A stretch of DNA of 64,000 nucleotides from an uncultured Ilumatobacter sp. (GTDB lineage: Bacteria; Actinomycetota; Acidimicrobiia; Acidimicrobiales; Ilumatobacteraceae): positions 62,001 through 126,000 of the forward strand of contig CALFRK010000047.1 of the NCBI GenBank assembly GCA_937919625.1. Reading direction: 5' to 3'. The position numbers and the translations under genes were made by a program. Positions 3,828 to 51,291 of the stretch are shown here, piece by piece. Below the pieces are notes generated by a model. It made no database searches. It had not been told where the DNA came from and saw only the letters and a list, made by a program, of their open reading frames with translations. Numbering within the stretch: the stretch's first letter is position 1; each line of letters begins with the position of its first letter.

Positions 3828-4697
3828 GTGACCGTGACTATCACTCCTGGCGATGTAGCGCTTTACCAGGAGCAGGGCTATCTCGTCGTGCCGGATGTTC
3901 TGTCCGAATCGGAGCTCGATGTGGTCCGTCGCGAGCTTGCCGAACTGGTCGACAAGGCGTCCGAGGTGACCGCAAATGACGAGGTGTATGACCTCGAAGA
4001 CAGCCACACCCGGGCAACACCGAGGGTAAGGCGGATCAAGAGCCCCGAAACGGTGATGCCAAGTGTGGCCGCTCTCGTTCACCATCCTGTGCTGGTAGAG
4101 ATTCTCACCCAACTGATTGGACCGGGAGTTCGTTTCCAAACCGGCAAGCTGAATATGAAGGCTGCGGGCGATGGCTCGGCCGTCGAGTGGCACCAGGACT
4201 GGGCGTTCTACCCGCACACCAACGATGATCTGCTCGCAGTTGGGATAATGCTCGACGATGTTGATGAGGCCAATGGACCTCTGTGTGTGCTGCCAGGAAG
4301 CCACCGCGGTGTGATCTATGACCACCATGCAAATGGCTTCTTCTGTGGAGCGATCGACCCGATCGAGAGCCAAATCGATTTCTCATCAACCCTTCCATTG
4401 ATGGGCGCAGCGGGTTCGATGACTTTTCACCACGTGCGGGCGGTGCACGGCTCGGCGCCGAATCGGTCGGCCCGCTCGCGGAATCTGTTGTTGTTCCAGT
4501 TCGCCGCTGTCGATGCATTTCCGCTAGTTCATCCCATCGACGATCTCGCCCGGTTTGACCAGATGATCGTTGCTGGCGAAGCCACGATCGAACCACGGGT
4601 GGTGGCTGTGCCGGTCAGAATGCCGCTCCCACCGGCACCCAGCCAAGGCTCGATCTACGAGAATCAACGGTCGATGGCAAACCGGTTCTTCAAGTGA
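3828..4697 (+). CDS. Phytanoyl-CoA dioxygenase (PhyH/EctD-like) family protein
   Basis: 289 aa. This is an Fe(II)/2-oxoglutarate-dependent dioxygenase fold. The iron-binding HxD is at His122-Asp124 (WHQDWAFYPH), the distal His is about 207 (RAVHGSAPNRS), and a following Arg would hold 2-oxoglutarate. Family members hydroxylate small substrates, including phytanoyl-CoA and ectoine; the substrate here is unknown. The start GTG at 3828 is the first codon (gtgaccgtg...). The gene is followed after 85 nt, including a predicted operator, by the PLP enzyme and deacylase genes. Confidence 0.85.
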   Translation: MTVTITPGDVALYQEQGYLVVPDVLSESELDVVRRELAELVDKASEVTANDEVYDLEDSHTRATPRVRRIKSPETVMPSVAALVHHPVLVEILTQLIGPGVRFQTGKLNMKAAGDGSAVEWHQDWAFYPHTNDDLLAVGIMLDDVDEANGPLCVLPGSHRGVIYDHHANGFFCGAIDPIESQIDFSSTLPLMGAAGSMTFHHVRAVHGSAPNRSARSRNLLLFQFAAVDAFPLVHPIDDLARFDQMIVAGEATIEPRVVAVPVRMPLPPAPSQGSIYENQRSMANRFFK

Positions 4698-4734: not shown

Positions 4735-4764
4735 ATTCCATTCGGCGAAACCCCGGTTTCATTC
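4735..4764. promoter_or_regulatory. Predicted IclR-type operator, three half-sites
   Basis: ATTCC (4735-4739), 7 nt, GAAAC (4747-4751), 4 nt, GTTTC (4756-4760), then ATTC. The same 30-base layout recurs at 47145. It lies 19 nt before the ATG at 4783, which argues that the PLP enzyme starts there and not at the upstream in-frame ATG inside the PhyH gene. Confidence 0.6.
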
Positions 4765-4782
4765 GTCGGCTACGATTCCGTC

Positions 4783-5859
4783 ATGTGGCGTTTTGCCGAG
4801 TTTCTCGAGATTGACCCGTCAATCTCCATCAGCCTCGGAGAGGGTGATACGCCGCTGCTGAACGCGACATGTTCGCGACTCACCCAGCCCGGCGCCCCAA
4901 CTGTCTGTTTCAAGGCCGAATACCAGAATCCCACGGGATCGTTCAAAGACCGAATCGCAGCCATGGCGACGGCGATCATCGCCAGGGACGCACTGCTTGG
5001 CGCCGTCGGCACGTCTTCGGGCAATGGCGGTGCGGCGATCGCGGCCTATGCCGCTCGAGCAGGTTTCCCCGTCATGTTGTTCACCGTCTCCGGAATCGTC
5101 GATGGCAAGCTGCAGCAGATATTGGCCCACGGTGCACGAGCGAACATTGTCGCCGAATTGGGCTCAGCGTTCGAGGGTGTGGAAACTGTGGCACAGACCA
5201 TCGCCACGATGGCGGCAGATCAAGGGTGGCTGGCGTTCCTCACCGGTGGACGTTACGCCCCCGAGGCCATGCGGGGTGCTGAAACAATTGCTTACGAACT
5301 GATCGAACAACGGCCGACGGCGACCGCCGTCTACATTCCAATCGGCGGCGGCGGCCTGTTGGCGTCGATCTGGCGGGGCTATCAGCGTATGGGTGTCAGC
5401 AAGGCGATTCCGCGCTTGATCGGGGTGCAACCGGACGGCTGCCCGACCCTGAACCGAGCTCTGGCGGGCAGGTTCGAACCGCTTGACGGTTATCTCACCA
5501 CCACCATCTCGGGACTCCAAGTACCGGTGTTGTTCGACTTCGACGCCACCACGGCAATCACGGAGAGTGGAGGGCACGTGGTCGAAGTAACCGATCAACA
5601 GGCCTGGGACGCGCAACAGATCCTCGCCCGCCAGGAAGGCCTGTTCGTCGAGCCGGCGGGGGCGACCGCACTGGCGGGGGTTCTGTTCGACCTTGAACGC
5701 GGGAATCTTTCGGAAGACGACGAAGTGATCGTGATCCTGTCAGGGGCCGGACACAAAGACGCCGTGTCGGCCGCACGACTCGGCGAGGGCAACCCTCCCC
5801 GTCACATCAAAGCCGAGGAAATCAAGTCCGTACTCGCAGAATTCGGAGTCTCACCATGA
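4783..5859 (+). CDS. PLP-dependent threonine synthase/dehydratase-like enzyme
   Basis: 358 aa from ATG 4783. It is a fold-type II PLP enzyme (PF00291). SLGEGDTPLL is near the start, the PLP lysine sits in NPTGSFKDR, SSGNGG is the substrate loop, GGGGLL is the phosphate-binding loop, and the end carries ILSGAGHKD. The wording is closest to threonine synthase, but the context is catabolic, so a beta-elimination or beta-replacement on a hydroxy- or diamino-acid is as likely. The reading frame is open back to 4570, but a predicted operator at 4735-4764 and homology starting at MWRF favour 4783. It overlaps the next gene by 4 nt (ATGA), so translation is probably coupled. Confidence 0.8.
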   Translation: MWRFAEFLEIDPSISISLGEGDTPLLNATCSRLTQPGAPTVCFKAEYQNPTGSFKDRIAAMATAIIARDALLGAVGTSSGNGGAAIAAYAARAGFPVMLFTVSGIVDGKLQQILAHGARANIVAELGSAFEGVETVAQTIATMAADQGWLAFLTGGRYAPEAMRGAETIAYELIEQRPTATAVYIPIGGGGLLASIWRGYQRMGVSKAIPRLIGVQPDGCPTLNRALAGRFEPLDGYLTTTISGLQVPVLFDFDATTAITESGGHVVEVTDQQAWDAQQILARQEGLFVEPAGATALAGVLFDLERGNLSEDDEVIVILSGAGHKDAVSAARLGEGNPPRHIKAEEIKSVLAEFGVSP

Positions 5860-12868: not shown

Positions 12869-13067
12869 CAGATGGTCCTTTCCGGATCCTGTTCACGCTT
12901 GCCGGACTTGCCCTTGAGGTTGGCGTTGTCCAAGCTTGGTTGCTCTGGGTATTCAGGCCACAACCGCTCAGTGTTGTTGCCCTTCAGCGATACTTCGAGT
13001 TGTGCTCCCCACGATGGCTGCCCCTCGTAATGGTTCTGCTGTTCGTCTACGGAAACTGCCATCTAGT

Positions 13068-13093
13068 GAAACTCGAATTCCACTGTTCGGAAT
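13068..13093. promoter_or_regulatory. Predicted IclR-type operator between the first importer operon and the Rid gene
   Basis: GAAAC (13068-13072), 4 nt, ATTCC (13077-13081), 7 nt, GGAAT (13089-13093). The core has the RTTYC-N7-GRAAY layout, with the extra half-site on the left. It sits 200 nt before the importer operon start. The rest of the 511-nt gap 12869-13379 shows no convincing gene; small open frames there lack family features. Confidence 0.55.
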
Positions 13094-19905: not shown

Positions 19906-20757
19906 TCAGGTGATGCGCTTGCCGCGGTCGGCAGCGCCGGCGTAACCAATCTGCTCCTGCTGGGCGATCGCCCGGCGGGCGTTCTCGACGTCGCCGTGTG
20001 CCATTACCTCGGTGGCCGGATGCAAGAGCTCGAAATGCCCGAATCGATCCTCGCCGGCGACGAGATGGGCGAACGTCGCCTGGCCGGATACCTGCTTCAT
20101 CGACGGCGCGACATATCGAATCACCAGTCCGATCCGACGATCAGCCGATGTATTCGGGTTCGAGGCGTGGAAGAGGTGCCCGTGGTGCAACGACATCTCG
20201 CCAGGTCTCAGCGTGGCGTCGACAGCCTCGGCCTCGTTCACCTCGACTGAGATCTGCTGGCCCCGCGACAACAGGTTCGACTCGTCGAACGTGTCGCGAT
20301 GACCGACGATCTCACGCTGGTGACTGCCCGGAATGAAACGCATACAGCCGTTGTCCGGCGTGGCCGTAGTCAGCGCCACCCACGCCGTCACCTCCAAGGC
20401 ATCGTCGTACCCCCAATATGTCAGATCCTGGTGCCAGCTGACGAAGGCGGGCGTCGCTGGTTCCTTGATGAAAAGGTTGGCGCCCATCACCAACAGATCG
20501 TCACCGAGGATCTCCTTGACTGGCCCGAGTACTGACGGGAGACGCATGATCTCGTCGACGACCGGCAACACGATGCTGGCGAATCCTTTCACGATCTTGC
20601 TGGCGACGGCGTCTTCTGCATGGGCTGCCTCGACCGATTCCAAAATCGTTCGATGCGCGGCCGCTCGAGCTGGGGTCATTACCTCCAGCGGGAAGACGTA
20701 GCCGTCACGCTCATACGCCGCTCGTAGTGGCACGTCTCGAAGCGGCACGTCGATCAC
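19906..20757 (-). CDS. Phytanoyl-CoA dioxygenase (PhyH) family protein, second copy
   Basis: 283 aa from GTG 20757. The iron-binding HxD is at His109-Asp111 (VSWHQDLTYWG); MRFIPGSHQREI and the distal His in LHHGHLFHASNPN are followed by Arg residues for 2-oxoglutarate. It differs widely from the PhyH at 3828 and belongs to another subgroup, where Trp and Tyr follow the HxD. The GTG overlaps the stop of the aminotransferase gene as GTGA, so the two are translated together. Substrate unknown, but probably the same compound or product as the aminotransferase. Confidence 0.85.
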   Translation of the reverse strand: MIDVPLRDVPLRAAYERDGYVFPLEVMTPARAAAHRTILESVEAAHAEDAVASKIVKGFASIVLPVVDEIMRLPSVLGPVKEILGDDLLVMGANLFIKEPATPAFVSWHQDLTYWGYDDALEVTAWVALTTATPDNGCMRFIPGSHQREIVGHRDTFDESNLLSRGQQISVEVNEAEAVDATLRPGEMSLHHGHLFHASNPNTSADRRIGLVIRYVAPSMKQVSGQATFAHLVAGEDRFGHFELLHPATEVMAHGDVENARRAIAQQEQIGYAGAADRGKRIT

Positions 20758-22064
20758 CCTTCGTTCGACGCTGCCAGCTCGCCGAGCGCATGATCGGCCG
20801 CAGCGAGGGTCCGATCGATCAGGTCGTCGTCGTGGGCGGCCGAGACGAACCACAAACCCCGACTGGTCGGCCTGACGCCGTGATCCTGCAGGAGTTCGAG
20901 GAAGCGGGCGAGCATCGGCCCATCGGAGTTCGCCGCGAAGTCGGTGCGCGACCCCATCGGACCCGGCTTGCCGAAGCGGGTCTGGAGCAGACCGCCGCCG
21001 ATGTGATCGACGGCGAGTTCGACATCGTGCTGACGGCCGAGTTGCACGAAACCGTCGACGAGGCGTCGAGCGAGGCGATCGATCTCCGGGTACGGGTCGG
21101 TGTCAATTAGCACACGGAGCGTGGCGATGCCGGCCGCAACCGACGAGACGCCGGTGTTGTACGTGCCTGAATGGTTGACCTCCCCGCGGCCGACGCCGGC
21201 CAGCAGTTCGGTGCTTGTTCCGAGCACCGCGAGTGGAAACCCTGATGCGATCGCTTTGGCGTAGATCGAGATGTCTCCATGGATGCCATACAGGCCTTGG
21301 GCCCCGGTTAGTCCGAGCCGAAATCCGGTGATCACTTCATCGATGATGAACAGAGCGCCGTGCTGGCGGCACAGCGCTTTGACACCCTCGAGATAACCGA
21401 CCGACGGTGGAATCAGACCGGTGTTGCACATCACCGGTTCCATCAGTACGCAAGCCACATCGCCCGACTCGAGAGCCTGGGCGACCTGCGTCAGGTCGTT
21501 CCACTCACATAAAAGCACGTCGGAGGCGGCCGAGACCGATTGACCCGGCGTGAGCGGAACCGGTCCCATCGGTTCGGGCGTAACGGCCATGTTGACGAAC
21601 AGCGGGTCGAGCCAACCGTGGTAGTGGCCGGTGAAGCGCACCACCCTGTGATGGCCTGTTGCCGCCCGGGCAATCCGGACGCCCAAGAGATCCATCTCAG
21701 TTCCGCTCATGCCGATCCGGATGCTTTCGATCCACGGCAATACGCCGACAAGGGTTTCGGCGAACTCGGCTTCGAACCGGTTCTGTCCGGCGAACAGTTG
21801 GCCGACGGACAGCGATTGCTGAACAGCGGCGGTCACTGCCGGATGGTTGTGGCCGAGCACCATCGGGCCCATGCCGGCGGCGTAGTCGATGTAGACGTTG
21901 TCGTCGACATCCCACAGCAGCGCACCGTCGCCACGCGCGATCGTCAAGGGCACCGGTGTTCCGTGCAAACGAACATTCGAGTTGACACCGCCCGCGATCA
22001 CCTGTTGACGTCGCGCGTGCTCTGCTCGGCTCGTGTCGTAGCGGAGATCGGTTGCGGGTCTCAT
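20754..22064 (-). CDS. Class III aminotransferase (glutamate-1-semialdehyde-aminomutase-like)
   Basis: 436 aa. GGVNSNVRL, then LLWDVDDNVYIDYAAGMGPM and LGHNHP follow the HemL pattern. The PLP Asp is in FIIDEVITGFR (Asp242), and the PLP lysine is Lys270 in ISIYAKAIASGFP. HemL-like enzymes include true heme aminomutases and many catabolic omega-aminotransferases. A catabolic role is likelier here because the gene is paired with a dioxygenase in the island. A 33-nt palindrome lies 100 nt upstream. Confidence 0.85.
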   Translation of the reverse strand: MRPATDLRYDTSRAEHARRQQVIAGGVNSNVRLHGTPVPLTIARGDGALLWDVDDNVYIDYAAGMGPMVLGHNHPAVTAAVQQSLSVGQLFAGQNRFEAEFAETLVGVLPWIESIRIGMSGTEMDLLGVRIARAATGHHRVVRFTGHYHGWLDPLFVNMAVTPEPMGPVPLTPGQSVSAASDVLLCEWNDLTQVAQALESGDVACVLMEPVMCNTGLIPPSVGYLEGVKALCRQHGALFIIDEVITGFRLGLTGAQGLYGIHGDISIYAKAIASGFPLAVLGTSTELLAGVGRGEVNHSGTYNTGVSSVAAGIATLRVLIDTDPYPEIDRLARRLVDGFVQLGRQHDVELAVDHIGGGLLQTRFGKPGPMGSRTDFAANSDGPMLARFLELLQDHGVRPTSRGLWFVSAAHDDDLIDRTLAAADHALGELAASNEG

Positions 22065-22163
22065 TGGTCACCTTCTGGTCATGTAGTGATGCAATCCGTG
22101 CCAGATCTGGAGCGTGGCGCAGCGTCCGCCCGATCCGAGCATGTCTAACCATACCATCTACTG

Positions 22164-22196
22164 CAATACCAATTCCACGCCGTGGAATTGGTATTG
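22164..22196. promoter_or_regulatory. 33-nt perfect palindrome, strongest copy of the island operator
   Basis: Two 16-nt arms (left arm CAATACCAATTCCACG) are separated by a single C and match perfectly. The inner part is ATTCC (22172-22176), 7 nt, GGAAT (22184-22188), the island core motif. The outer arms add half-site-like GCAAT and ATTGT at 4-nt spacing. It lies between the divergent aminotransferase and second-importer operons, 100 nt from the aminotransferase start. Confidence 0.7.
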
Positions 22197-22323
22197 TGCA
22201 ATGTCGAGAACGGCCGCCGGTGAACCGTCCAACGATCACCCGTGCGAGTTGCTCCCGCGGCACTCCGTCGGATCATTCACAGATCGCCGCCACGGATTGA
22301 CGAACCGCATTACGGTGGCTAAG

Positions 22324-22340
22324 GTTCCACGCAGTGAAAT
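22324..22340. promoter_or_regulatory. Second operator copy upstream of the second importer operon
   Basis: GTTCC (22324-22328), ACGCAGT, GAAAT (22336-22340): the RTTYC-N7-GRAAY core, and 4 of the 7 spacer bases match the large palindrome 150 nt away. Two copies in one 454-nt gap suggest looping or separate control of the two divergent operons. Otherwise the gap 22065-22518 shows no gene. Confidence 0.55.
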
Positions 22341-22518: not shown

Positions 22519-24585
22519 GTGAGCGGCGGCGATGTGCGTTCAGCCGATGAAGCGCTGCTTCGCATCGACGGGCTGAGCATCGAGTTTGGTGCGCTCGAAT
22601 CGCCGGTCAAGGCCGTCAACAATGTGACCTTGGAGGTTCGCCGCGGCGAGACGCTCGGGATCATCGGTGAGTCCGGGTCGGGCAAGAGCGTGACCGCGAT
22701 GTCGATCCTTCGGCTGCTTCCCAAGGATCAGGCCCGGGTTACCCAAGGCCGGATCTGGTTCGACGGGAACGACCTACTCGAAGCCGAACCCGGCCAGCTC
22801 CGCCGAGTACGCGGCAAAGACATCTCGATCATCTTCCAAGACCCGGCGACTTCGTTGCACCCGTCGTTCACGATCGGCGCGCAACTGATCGAGGCGATCC
22901 GCGTCCACGACGGGCGGATCTCGAAAGCCGATGCACGAACGCGCGCCGCAGAACTCATCACCAGCGTGGGGATCGCTCACGCTGACGAACGCCTCGACCA
23001 GTACCCCCACCAGTTTTCCGGTGGGATGCGGCAGCGCTGCATGATCGCCATGGCGATTGCCAACCAGCCCAGCGTCGTGATCGCCGACGAACCGACGACT
23101 GCGCTGGATGTCACGATTCAGGCAGAGATCTTGAGCCTGCTCCGTGTGGTCCAACGCGAAACACACTCGGCGGTGATCTTCATCACCCACGACCTCCGTG
23201 TCGTCGCTCAGGTTGCCGAACGAGTGGCCGTGATGTACGCCGGTTCGATCGTCGAGTCCGGCAAGGTCGACGAAGTGTTCGAGAACCCTCAACACCCGTA
23301 CACGTCGGCCTTGTTGCGCAGCCTTCCCGCCCTCGACCATCGTGCCGAGCGCCAGGTGTCGATTCAGGGATCGCCACCGAATCCCAGCGACCTGCCGCCG
23401 GGCTGTTCATTCGAGCCCCGCTGTGACGTTGCCGACGGTCGATCAGTCTGCACGACCGATCGCCCACCGCTCCAGGATATTGGTGGGGGCCGAACAGTGG
23501 CCTGTCACTTCAGTGGCGAGACTGAGGCCGTTGCCGTCAATCTGTCACGCCACTCGATGCAGCCTCAGGCGATTGCGGCGGCCGCGCAAGTGGACATCGA
23601 GCCGGTGCTTCGAGTCGAAAACCTCGACAAGCGCTTTGCAATCGGCGGGGGTTTGTTCACTGGCGCCAAGCGAGAGGTTCACGCCGTCAACGGCGTGTCG
23701 TTCGACGTCTACAAGGGCAAGACCCTGGCGTTGGTGGGCGAGTCGGGGTCTGGCAAATCCACAACCGCGCGGTTGATCCTTCGACTTCACGATCCATCTG
23801 GTGGCCGGATTCTCTTCGGCGGTTTGGATCTTGCGAAATCCAACGGGCGTCAACTGCGTGACATCCGCCGCGAAATTCAGGTCATCTTTCAGGATCCGTT
23901 CGGATCGCTAAACCCTCGCCTAACGGCCCGCGAGTTGGTCACCGAGCCGCTCAAGATCCAGGGGATCTTTGATCCGAACGGCCCCGACCACGTCGGAGAG
24001 CTGCTCTCGCGAGTCGGGCTGTCACCAAGCCAATGGGATCGTCAGCCGGCAGCCTTTTCCGGCGGCCAACGTCAGCGGATTGCGATCGCCCGTGCGCTCA
24101 TCCTCGAGCCAAGGATGCTGGTGCTCGACGAGGCTGTATCCGCCTTGGACGTGTCTATTCAGGCTCAGGTTCTGAACCTACTCGCCGATCTGCAAGACGA
24201 ACTCGGTTTGACCTACCTGTTCATCTCGCACGATCTCGCCGTAGTACGCCAACTGGCCGACTCCGTCGCTGTAATGTTCGCTGGTCGCATCGTCGAACAG
24301 GGCGTCGCTGCCGACGTCTATGGTTCGGCGAGGCATCCCTATACGAAGGCATTGCTGGCCGCCATTCCGGGCACCGACACGCAGCGCCGCGCGCCGGGCG
24401 ACGACGTCGAGGTGACCGAAGCGCGCATCGACATCGCCGAACACGGATGCGCCTACCGCCTGCGGTGCCCGATTGCACAAGATGTGTGCGCAACTGATAG
24501 TCCGTCGTTCGCACGGATCGAAGGTACGGCTCACGACGTCGCTTGCCATTTCGGTGCTGTGCCAGTTGAAGTGGGTGCGCCGTGA
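22519..24585 (+). CDS. Fused two-domain oligopeptide-type ABC ATPase (DppD-DppF)
   Basis: 688 aa from GTG 22519 (GTG 22534 is also possible; the longer frame to 22114 crosses the operators and has no family similarity). Domain 1: Walker [10 protein letters not shown]-loop [12 protein letters not shown], signature FSGGMRQR, Walker B VIADEPTT, then the Cys-rich tail [16 protein letters not shown]. Domain 2: Walker [20 protein letters not shown], signature FSGGQRQR, Walker B VLDEAVS, and its own tail [15 protein letters not shown] single chain replaces the two separate ATPases of the first importer. It overlaps the next permease by 4 nt (GTGA). Confidence 0.88.
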
Positions 24586-42128: not shown

Positions 42129-42599
42129 TTAGTTCGGGCGCACGGCGATCACATCGACCTCGAACTTGAGCGCCGGTGAGAGACAGTTCGAGATCGTTGT
42201 TCGGGCAGGCAGCGGCGGACTGAAATAGTCACGATAGATCTCGTTGTAGAGAGGCCCGTCGGCTGAGTCATGGACGTAGCTGGTAACCCGTACCACGTTT
42301 CGCAGTGTCAGACCCGCCGAAGCGAGGACACCCTCGACGTTAGCCATCGACCGGCGCATCTCCTCTTCGAATGTGCCAGAGATGATGGCTCCGGTGGCAT
42401 CGACCGAGGCTTGGCCCGAGACGAAGACGAACCCGTTCGCTTCGACGGCTGGGCTGAACGGAAGATGACTCGAGATAGCGGTCGCGATCGGTGTCCAGCC
42501 TGGGGAAGCTTGGTCGTCATCCGATCTGCGCGGGTGTCCGGCGGGTGTGAGTTCGTCATGCGTGTCGGTGTTCACCAGACCGAAGGTAACAGTTTTCAT
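42129..42599 (-). CDS. RidA/YjgF-family protein, N-terminally extended
   Basis: 156 aa from ATG 42599. After about 35 extra residues (rich in Asp/Pro/Arg) the Rid pattern begins: FSPAVEANGFVFVSGQASVD, EEMRRSMANVEGVLASAGLT, NVVRVTSYV, and RTTISNCLSPALKFEVDVIAV with the conserved Arg. The extension is unusual; a start at GTG near 42565 would remove only part of it. The operator at 42593 overlaps the start codon. Divergent from the D-aminoacylase gene. Confidence 0.8.
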   Translation of the reverse strand: MKTVTFGLVNTDTHDELTPAGHPRRSDDDQASPGWTPIATAISSHLPFSPAVEANGFVFVSGQASVDATGAIISGTFEEEMRRSMANVEGVLASAGLTLRNVVRVTSYVHDSADGPLYNEIYRDYFSPPLPARTTISNCLSPALKFEVDVIAVRPN

Positions 42600-42621
42600 C
42601 TAGTGGATTCGTAGTTTCATT
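42593..42621. promoter_or_regulatory. Degenerate copy of the island operator between Rid and D-aminoacylase genes
   Basis: TTTTC (42593-42597), 7 nt, GGATT (42605-42609), 4 nt, GTTTC (42614-42618), ATTT. Same spacing and the same GTTTCATT end as the copies at 4735 and 47145. It covers the Rid start codon and lies 50 nt before the D-aminoacylase start. Confidence 0.5.
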
Positions 42622-42670
42622 TCTGTGATACGGTCGCTCGACGACTGTGCTCACTCATGCGAGGTACGAC

Positions 42671-45799: not shown

Positions 45800-47080
45800 T
45801 CAGAACAGTGTTTCGGCGATCTCGACGACTCGATAGTCGTCGTCGACGATCGGGATCGCCCGCCATTTGTCGAATGTCGTGCACGGATGTGAGATGCCGA
45901 AACCGACGAGGTCGCCCACGCCGAGCGGATCTGCCGGATCGACTTCGAGAAATGCGTGTTGGTCATTGATCTCTACGACCCGAGTCCCCGCAACAGCCTT
46001 GACCTCTGTCGAACCGCGGCGGCGGACCTTCTTTAGGATCGGTAATAGGCCGTCGGCCGAGGCGTCGCGTTTGCCGATGCCCACCAGGACCCGCGTCGGC
46101 TCGGGTCGTGACAGCACCACGCCCCATATCTCGATCGCCGACACGAGCCGATCGCCGTGCGCAGTGCGCGGGGTCTCACCCATCGGCGAGACGTGGTGCA
46201 GCGAGCCGTCATCGTGGCTTATGTAGCAGCCGCTGCGGATCACGATCCGGAGCGGAGATTCGATACTGACGTGCCCGAAACGGTCGACGACGTGGTCGAA
46301 GAACGCGCTGCCACCGGCGGTGACTATCACCTCTGGCGTCGGCTCGAACCAACCGTTGGCTTCGATTGCGTGCGTTAGTTCGACGATCTGGTCGAGGAAC
46401 TCGTCGACCCGCTCTTCGACAGGTCGATCTCCGATCGGCCCTAGAATCCCCTCGAACCCGGATGTTCCTGTCAGGGCGAGATGGGGGGACCGGGCCGCAG
46501 CGGCGGCGACGAGCAGACCGTCGGCGATCGTGCGCACGCCTGTCCGTCCTCCAACGATTCCCATCTCGAGCAGCACCGGAAGCCGATTGACGGAATCGCG
46601 GCGCGCCAAGGTCTCGTTCATGATTTCGACACCCTCGACGGAGTCGACGTAGCAGTACACCTCGAAGCCCTCGTCGAGCGATTTCGCCAACCATTCGATC
46701 TCGCCCGGAACGACGACCTGATTGGCGATCAGGACCCGATTCACTCCGGCCTCCCGCATCGTCTTGGCCTGCCACGTTGTTGCGGCAGTCATCGCCCAGG
46801 CACCGTCGCGGATCTGGCGCCGAAAGAGTGCCGGTGCCATGGTTGTCTTGCCGTGGGGTGCGAGAGATACATGGCTGCGTTCGCAGAAACCCTTCATCGT
46901 CCTGCTGTTGTGGTCGATCGCCGAGTCGAACATCACGGCGACCGGATATGGAATGTCGGCATCGAAGACGCACCATCCGGTTGCAGCGCCAGCACCGAGC
47001 GGAAAGCCCTTCGAGTTGTTTGCCGAAGGTTGCGCTGCTTCGGAGCCGGCGTCGCCTGCGGTGGGTGTTTCGAGATCCAT
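45800..47080 (-). CDS. D-serine dehydratase / D-threonine aldolase-like PLP enzyme
   Basis: 426 aa, fold-type III (alanine-racemase barrel). PLP lysine is Lys78 in LAPHGKTTMAP. The C-terminal domain ends with GFGISHPCTTFDKWRAIPIV; the His-Pro-Cys pair is the zinc site of eukaryote-type D-serine dehydratases. It should therefore deaminate a D-hydroxy-amino acid or split it by retro-aldol. The start ATG 47080 has a leader with the operator at 47145. Convergent end with the M81 gene, 18 nt apart. Confidence 0.82.
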   Translation of the reverse strand: MDLETPTAGDAGSEAAQPSANNSKGFPLGAGAATGWCVFDADIPYPVAVMFDSAIDHNSRTMKGFCERSHVSLAPHGKTTMAPALFRRQIRDGAWAMTAATTWQAKTMREAGVNRVLIANQVVVPGEIEWLAKSLDEGFEVYCYVDSVEGVEIMNETLARRDSVNRLPVLLEMGIVGGRTGVRTIADGLLVAAAAARSPHLALTGTSGFEGILGPIGDRPVEERVDEFLDQIVELTHAIEANGWFEPTPEVIVTAGGSAFFDHVVDRFGHVSIESPLRIVIRSGCYISHDDGSLHHVSPMGETPRTAHGDRLVSAIEIWGVVLSRPEPTRVLVGIGKRDASADGLLPILKKVRRRGSTEVKAVAGTRVVEINDQHAFLEVDPADPLGVGDLVGFGISHPCTTFDKWRAIPIVDDDYRVVEIAETLF

Positions 47081-47144: not shown

Positions 47145-47174
47145 ATTCCAATGGGGGAAACAGCCGTTTCATTC
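47145..47174. promoter_or_regulatory. Predicted IclR-type operator, three half-sites
   Basis: ATTCC (47145-47149), 7 nt, GAAAC (47157-47161), 4 nt, GTTTC (47166-47170), ATTC. It matches the copy at 4735 in all half-sites and spacings. It is between the divergent D-serine-dehydratase-like and DUF3604 genes. Confidence 0.65.
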
Positions 47175-47220
47175 AGGGTGCTAGTTTGGTGGGCGTTGGC
47201 CCACACCACTGGAGAATTGT

Positions 47221-50352: not shown

Positions 50353-51156
50353 TCAGGCTTCGGTGAGGAAGTCGCGGACGAGCTGGAGCCCGACACGGCG
50401 AAGTTGCTTGACGACGCCTGGCACCTTGTCGCGGGTCAATCTGAGTGCTGGGGCGCTGACACTGATGCCGCACGGGAAGGGCATCCCCTGGAGTGCTACG
50501 GCTACGCATCGACCGTCGGCCTGATTCTCGAGTTCGTCGATTGCGTATCCCTGCTGCCGGACCACCTCGAGGGCAGACATGTACGCCTTTGGAGTGGTGA
50601 TCGTGTTGTCGGTGAACGGCGTCATCTCGACTGCGTTTAACATCGTCAGAACACGCTCATCAGGGAGCTCAGCTGCCATCGCCTTACCCATCGCGGTCGA
50701 GTGGATTGGGGCACGATCGCCGACTCGGGCAGCGAGGCGCATCATCTGGCTGCTCTCAAAGACGAGACTGTGAACGACCATCGCCCCATCGAGTGTGCCG
50801 AGATTCGTAGTCTCGCCCGTGTCGTCGCGGAGTCGTCGGAGCGGACCGCTGGCCTGACCGAGGAATGCCTCGAGTTGGCGGGCGTTGTGGGGTTGGAAGG
50901 CGAGTCCGACTCGGTACAACGCGGTCTGCTCGTCACGCTCGACATAGTTGCGACCCTCGAGAGCCGAAAGATATCGAAATGCCGAACTCTTCGGCAGTGA
51001 TGTGACCGCGGCAACGTCAGGAAGTGACACACCCTCACGCGAGTGTTGCAGCAGGTCGAGGATGTCACAGACTCGTTCGACGGCGCGGATTGGGTAGGTG
51101 TTCGATGAATCAGTTTTTGTTGTGCTTCCTGACGTCGTGGTCGACTTCTTGGTCAT
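50353..51156 (-). CDS. IclR-family transcription regulator
   Basis: 267 aa. A Ser/Thr/Lys-rich tail (1-20) precedes the winged helix-turn-helix (RAVERVCDILDLLQHSREGV, LPDVAAVTSLPKSSAFRYLSAL, GRNYVER). The effector domain has APIHSTAMGKAMAAELPDE and ENQADGRCVAVALQG, the ligand-binding wording of IclR/KdgR proteins. It is the only intact DNA-binding regulator in the window. An RTTYC-N7-GRAAY site lies in its own promoter (51275), so it probably controls itself and the island operons carrying the same site. Confidence 0.88.
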   Translation of the reverse strand: MTKKSTTTSGSTTKTDSSNTYPIRAVERVCDILDLLQHSREGVSLPDVAAVTSLPKSSAFRYLSALEGRNYVERDEQTALYRVGLAFQPHNARQLEAFLGQASGPLRRLRDDTGETTNLGTLDGAMVVHSLVFESSQMMRLAARVGDRAPIHSTAMGKAMAAELPDERVLTMLNAVEMTPFTDNTITTPKAYMSALEVVRQQGYAIDELENQADGRCVAVALQGMPFPCGISVSAPALRLTRDKVPGVVKQLRRVGLQLVRDFLTEA

Positions 51157-51274: not shown

Positions 51275-51291
51275 CGTTTCACTCCTCGAAA
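51275..51291. promoter_or_regulatory. Operator copy in the iclR / acyl-CoA dehydrogenase divergent promoter
   Basis: GTTTC (51275-51279), ACTCCTC, GAAAT (51287-51291), the same core spacing as the island operators; 119 nt before the iclR start and 114 nt before the dehydrogenase start. The rest of the gap 51157-51404 shows no gene. Confidence 0.55.

Follow-up and report, generated by a model that had tools for sequence, protein, structure and literature searches.

A catabolic island and its divergent promoter gap

The window, i.e., the whole 64-kb stretch of DNA that was analyzed, carries a catabolic island at positions 4570–51156, which encodes two Opp-type importers, two sulfatases, three Amidohydro_3 proteins, two MlrC-like M81 proteins, RidA-like proteins, a PfkB kinase, a KDPG-type aldolase, an IlvD/Edd dehydratase, a gluconolactonase-like protein, and a weakly BhcC-like protein. 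In a genome of the same genus (G009), the island is colinear from 13.4 to 51.1 kb at ~78% identity. A class-III aminotransferase gene and the second Opp-type importer operon point away from each other, and the gap between them harbors a perfect 33-nt palindrome. The two flanking genes and the features of the gap are as follows:

20754..22064, minus strand: class-III aminotransferase (PF00202), putatively regulated
22148..22153, minus strand: predicted −10 box TATGGT of the aminotransferase promoter, aligning with TATGGT in G009 and TACACT in L024
22152..22166: partner dyad in the tandem, TTGCAGTAGATGGTA on the minus strand, adjoining the −10 box; best partner offset −21; kept in G009 and L024
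22164..22196: perfect palindrome with 16-nt arms and a 1-nt center; ~8e-5 expected per window
22173..22187: core operator dyad TTCCACGCCGTGGAA over the predicted aminotransferase −35 box; found by a position weight matrix (PWM) from the other sites; kept in relatives
22191..22196: 6-bp segment GTATTG in the far arm, in neither relative
22297..22325, plus strand: predicted importer promoter TTGACG-N17-TAAGGT, from a three-locus comparison, which the 22325 operator overlaps
22325..22339: second operator dyad TTCCACGCAGTGAAA in the importer promoter, over the −10 box and start; top score; kept in G009 and L024
about 22519..24585, plus strand: Opp/Dpp-type double ATPase that opens the second importer operon, putatively regulated; predicted start codon

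The third locus, L024, is a 4.4-kb contig with the same divergent gene pair and an 80% identical aminotransferase. Its importer promoter (TAGACG-N17-TACGGT) and that of G009 (TTGACC-N17-TATGGT) resemble the one in the window, and in all three an operator dyad follows at equal offset. The predicted window promoters were not recognized by a consensus promoter scanner.

The palindrome reads CAATACCAATTCCACG C CGTGGAATTGGTATTG, so that its sixteen-base arms match without any mismatch around a single C, exactly as the preliminary description had stated. No other perfect palindrome in the window is as long (the runner-up has 11-nt arms), and its length is far beyond chance: the longest arm averaged 9 and reached at most 12 in 60 Markov-simulated windows, the expected number with 16-nt arms is the ~8e-5 listed above, and the probability of the extended symmetry arising by chance is ~1e-6 per site. 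Its description as AT-rich holds relative to the window (45% versus 63% G+C), but not in absolute terms.

An island-wide motif with 21-bp spacing

The palindrome contains one copy of a motif, TTYCAYNNNRTGRAA, which occurs at 4736, 13057, 13078, 22173, 22325, 42594, 47146, and 51277, i.e., at about eight sites upstream of island genes. A pattern restricted to TTCCACNNNGTGGAA matched the palindrome alone in the genome and missed this motif family. The operators outside the gap and the presumed binder are:

4736..4771: tandem operator, dyads 4736 and 4757, preceding the PALP/AstE genes; in-frame ATG at 4783
13057..13092: tandem operator, dyads 13057 and 13078, ahead of the first importer operon
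42594..42629: tandem operator, dyads 42594 and 42615, between the divergent RidA and amidohydrolase genes; kept in G009
47146..47181: tandem operator, dyads 47146 and 47167, before the DUF3604 gene; kept in G009
51277..51291: operator TTTCACTCCTCGAAA in front of the iclR gene; kept in G009 as TTTCGCTCCTCGGAA
50353..51156, minus strand: IclR-family regulator (PF01614, PF09339), presumed binder; 81% identical to its G009 orthologue

That the palindrome contains an island-wide core motif was borne out, since a PWM trained without it recovers 22173–22187 at 16.1 bits. In a leave-one-out comparison all sites scored between 12.1 and 19.5 bits; the 22325 site ranked highest (19.5) and the palindrome core next (16.4), so that 22325, and not the palindrome core, is the better match to the motif. 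The weaker copy reported some 150 nt away therefore exists, at 22325–22339 and 152 bp from the palindrome center to center, but it is not weaker, and it is equally conserved. With the PWM from all sites, seven matches of at least 15 bits were found in the window versus 0.42 expected, an excess that arises partly by construction because the same sites train the matrix; one-mismatch matches to the motif are many elsewhere in the genome.

Partner scores, summed over the seven strong sites, peaked at a distance of 21 bp (35.2, with the next best offset scoring −30.3), a value reached by none of 20,000 random sets. The best partner lies exactly 21 bp away at five of the seven (13057, 42594, 47146, 4736, and 22173 with 22152), and 22325 and 51277 have no good partner at this distance. 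Such a spacing corresponds to two helical turns. For the palindrome, the best partner within 15 to 45 bp on either side lies at exactly −21, i.e., the two centers are at 22180 and 22159, with the partner being the less symmetric dyad; the +21 side scores −7.6. The preliminary description had proposed a tetramer, and two dimer sites 21 bp apart fit this idea, but the layout stems from the dyad at 22152–22166 on the aminotransferase side, which had been overlooked, and the idea that the 33-nt symmetry is itself the tetramer site found no support. Symmetry far beyond the core was seen at no other island site.

Conservation of the dyads and origin of the outer arms

On the aminotransferase strand, the window reads TTCCACGGCGTGGAA-ttggta-TTGCAGTAGATGGTA-tggt, G009 reads TTTCATTTGATGAAG-tggggg-TTGCAGGCAGTGGTA-tggt, and L024 reads ATCCATCAGTTGGAA-ctctta-TTGCATTAGGTGGTA-cact. 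Core dyad, 21-bp partner, and −10 box (TATGGT, TATGGT, and TACACT, respectively) are thus in register across all three loci; a plain MAFFT alignment of the gap with G009 had suggested loss of the site, and anchoring on the conserved promoter revealed the dyad. The 22325 dyad is likewise kept, as TTCCACGCACTGAAA in G009 and TTTCATGTAATGGAA in L024. Both operators lie 152 bp apart in L024, as in the window, and 66 bp apart in G009, where conserved sites were found at 20417, 20483, 36809, and 44641 of the joined stretch as well as in the 47-kb gap. Sequences, motif family, 21-bp spacing, and conservation in register can all be read directly from these loci.

Four further loci were uninformative for the gap: G002 (L025) is rearranged and has no divergent gap, L023 ends before the promoter, and the upstream genes differ in L026 and L027. 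Only some island genes (IlvD, aminotransferase, M81, and SDR; L005 / G002:C35) are present in G002, in rearranged order and with no close IclR. The L024 contig is binned as Acidobacteria, although its aminotransferase is 80% identical to that of the Acidimicrobiia-like island, which may reflect misbinning or transfer; no close IclR was found in its own genome bin, and the contig is short and maybe misbinned.

The 33-nt symmetry is absent from both G009 and L024, which have the same gene order and keep the central 15-bp dyad alone. For the extension, this is the very outcome that the preliminary description had named as speaking against its proposal, and its view of the full palindrome as the strongest site found no support; 22325 scores higher. 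Among the 60 relatives searched, we found neither a near-full copy of the palindrome nor a copy of its inner 23 nt within two mismatches. Because only the inner 15 bases are kept in relatives, the outer symmetry seems to stem from a recent mutation and not from essential design, and the required site most likely does not include its about 9–10 extra pairs.

Directly outside the dyad, G009 and L024 both have CACGA, and CACAATACCAA of the window becomes CACAA after removal of 6 bp. This segment was placed at 22191–22196 by three-way anchored alignment, with an ambiguity within 22188–22196, and it repeats the promoter-side arm exactly in inverse orientation (minus strand, CAATAC; plus strand, GTATTG). 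TATTG on the promoter side is common to the window and L024 and is therefore probably older; this history draws on two outgroups and a CACRA anchor of only 5 bp. Template switching is known to correct quasipalindromes, whereby imperfect inverted repeats become perfect (PMC7202029). A single such event during replication may have turned an ordinary IclR operator dyad into the 33-nt palindrome, perhaps altering its strength, a reading that we hold tentatively and at somewhat less than even odds.

Chance alone is a very unlikely origin of the outer arms, and two other routes have to be weighed against template switching. The arms could have been perfected if CAATTC was duplicated in tandem and then underwent a point change, as CAATAC and CAATTC differ in one base only. 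We consider this route unlikely and the less economical, as the change would have to fit the opposite arm exactly by chance where a single templated event suffices. It is also conceivable, if doubtful, that the full palindrome was selected as a super-strong site, with arms that give an IclR tetramer additional contacts or offer half-sites to a third dimer at the far end. The low chance probability of the extension would fit such selection, as would the fact that the outer arms include part of the left partner dyad, but the arms are asymmetric in G009 and L024, the inner 23 nt recur in none of the 60 relatives at the tolerance used, and both the shorter symmetry of the other island sites and the low score of the +21 side speak against selection.

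A putative IclR-type switch and its known counterparts

Our main reading, to which we assign a probability of roughly 0.78, is that the palindrome represents one dyad of a tandem IclR-family operator with a lineage-specific embellishment, and that the IclR-type repressor would act on the aminotransferase and importer promoters; the palindrome would hold one of the island's several on/off switches, very probably bound by this repressor. Against this reading stand the failure of the consensus scanner to recognize the window promoters, the want of a good 21-bp partner at 22325 and 51277, the missing close IclR in the L024 bin, and the many one-mismatch motif matches elsewhere in the genome. We infer binder, repression, and ligand as follows. 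The operator proper would be the dyad pair 22173–22187 and 22152–22166, which covers the predicted −35 box and flanks the −10 box of the aminotransferase promoter, and the island's IclR (50353–51156) would most likely bind it as two dimers on one DNA face. On the importer side, the single dyad 22325–22339 would act over the −10 box and start. Bound IclR would block RNA polymerase at both promoters, which would be released once an island substrate or breakdown product binds to the C-terminal domain of IclR. DNA looping between 22180 and 22332 is not favored, because the spacing varies (152 bp in L024 and 66 bp in G009) and 152 bp amounts to a half-integral number of turns.

The binder is assigned by inference and the genome holds about a dozen first-look IclR candidates, so that a regulator other than the island's IclR could occupy the operator. 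We regard this as distinctly unlikely: the iclR gene lies within the colinear island and has its own conserved site, it encodes the sole regulator recognized among the island ORFs scanned, and orthologues elsewhere adjoin matching sites. In G016 (IclR 48% identical), the top motif match of the locus lies at the divergent start of an Opp-type importer, and in G280 (IclR 49% identical) it overlaps the iclR start codon. The G016 match, TGTCAATAGATGAAA (L065, 18324–18338), is situated where an SBP_bac_5 importer operon and an SDR gene diverge, and a TTTCGT half-site follows 21 bp further along. The G280 match, TTTTACTAGATGAAA (L066, 9712–9726), is likely an autoregulatory site, and its locus also encodes an Opp-type importer, a creatininase-like protein, and a class-III aminotransferase. 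A hairpin function of the palindrome in RNA or DNA (terminator, attenuator, or cruciform) in place of a protein site is highly improbable. Its hairpin is strong for its composition (DNA z = −4.0), but relatives keep the dyad and not the hairpin, and no T-tract, terminator-like site, or Rfam match was found for it; moreover, it lies between divergent genes and upstream of the two predicted promoters and should thus be missing from both mRNAs. An intrinsic terminator was rejected for its position and for want of a T-tract after the stem-loop, and explanations by an Rfam RNA or a tRNA were likewise checked and discarded.

If correct, the main reading defines an operator code for an uncharacterized catabolic island in an Acidimicrobiia (Ilumatobacteraceae-like) genus, and the motif set predicts both the co-regulated genes and the protein controlling them. 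It further illustrates that the most eye-catching palindrome need not be the conserved site. The outer arms are a clean natural case in which to ask whether regulatory sites are reshaped by template switching, and a template switch here, if true, would be an example of such mutations remodeling a natural bacterial operator.

Among known systems, TtgV controls solvent efflux and in this differs from the window system. It is nevertheless homologous to the regulator (2xrn, E 1e-14), and the likeness to TtgV and other tetramer-binding IclR proteins would lie in a pair of dimers occupying neighboring sites on one face, for which the evidence here is the spacing. The nearest curated IclR subfamilies are BhcR and KdgR. 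The regulator scores 162 bits against the BhcR model (NCBIfam NF045644; cut-off 350) and 116 bits against KdgR (cut-off 275), well below both cut-offs, so that it belongs to neither and represents a distinct IclR protein. A protein encoded near iclR (45800–47080) shows a weak match to BhcC; together with the BhcR-model score, this hints at a hydroxyaspartate- or glyoxylate-like ligand. With quasipalindrome template-switch mutations (PMC7202029), the outer arms may share the expected outcome, i.e., an imperfect repeat perfected by a templated change; the present case concerns a regulatory site and is deduced from two relatives only.

The closest counterparts are the tandem operators of IclR group 1, whose motifs follow WTTYCRYW3RYGRAAW, with a WTT-11-AAW subgroup (Suvorova and Gelfand 2021, PMC8222616). 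Tandem sites with centers 18–22 nt apart were described there for 94 orthologous groups and explained by tetramer binding (PMC8222616). Positions 22172–22188 (ATTCCACGCCGTGGAAT) match this dyad type, except that the central GCC departs from W3; the match supports the preliminary view of a motif of IclR type. The 21-bp spacing at the palindrome, 13057, 42594, 47146, and 4736 falls within the published range, the putative regulator is encoded in the locus that it would regulate, and the sites are conserved in G009 and L024. TTYCRY-N3-RYGRAA dyads with centers about two turns apart are thus shared with the published operators (PMC8222616), as are positions over promoters and near the regulator start. 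In contrast to these operators, one window copy is extended to a perfect 33-nt palindrome, and the regulon, with two Opp-type importers, an aminotransferase, amidohydrolases, and M81 proteins, was matched to no described regulon. Since sequence and spacing agree with the published architecture, the site is, as judged from the DNA, an ordinary tandem IclR operator of a new regulon under a presumed regulator, with an unusual, lineage-specific extension.
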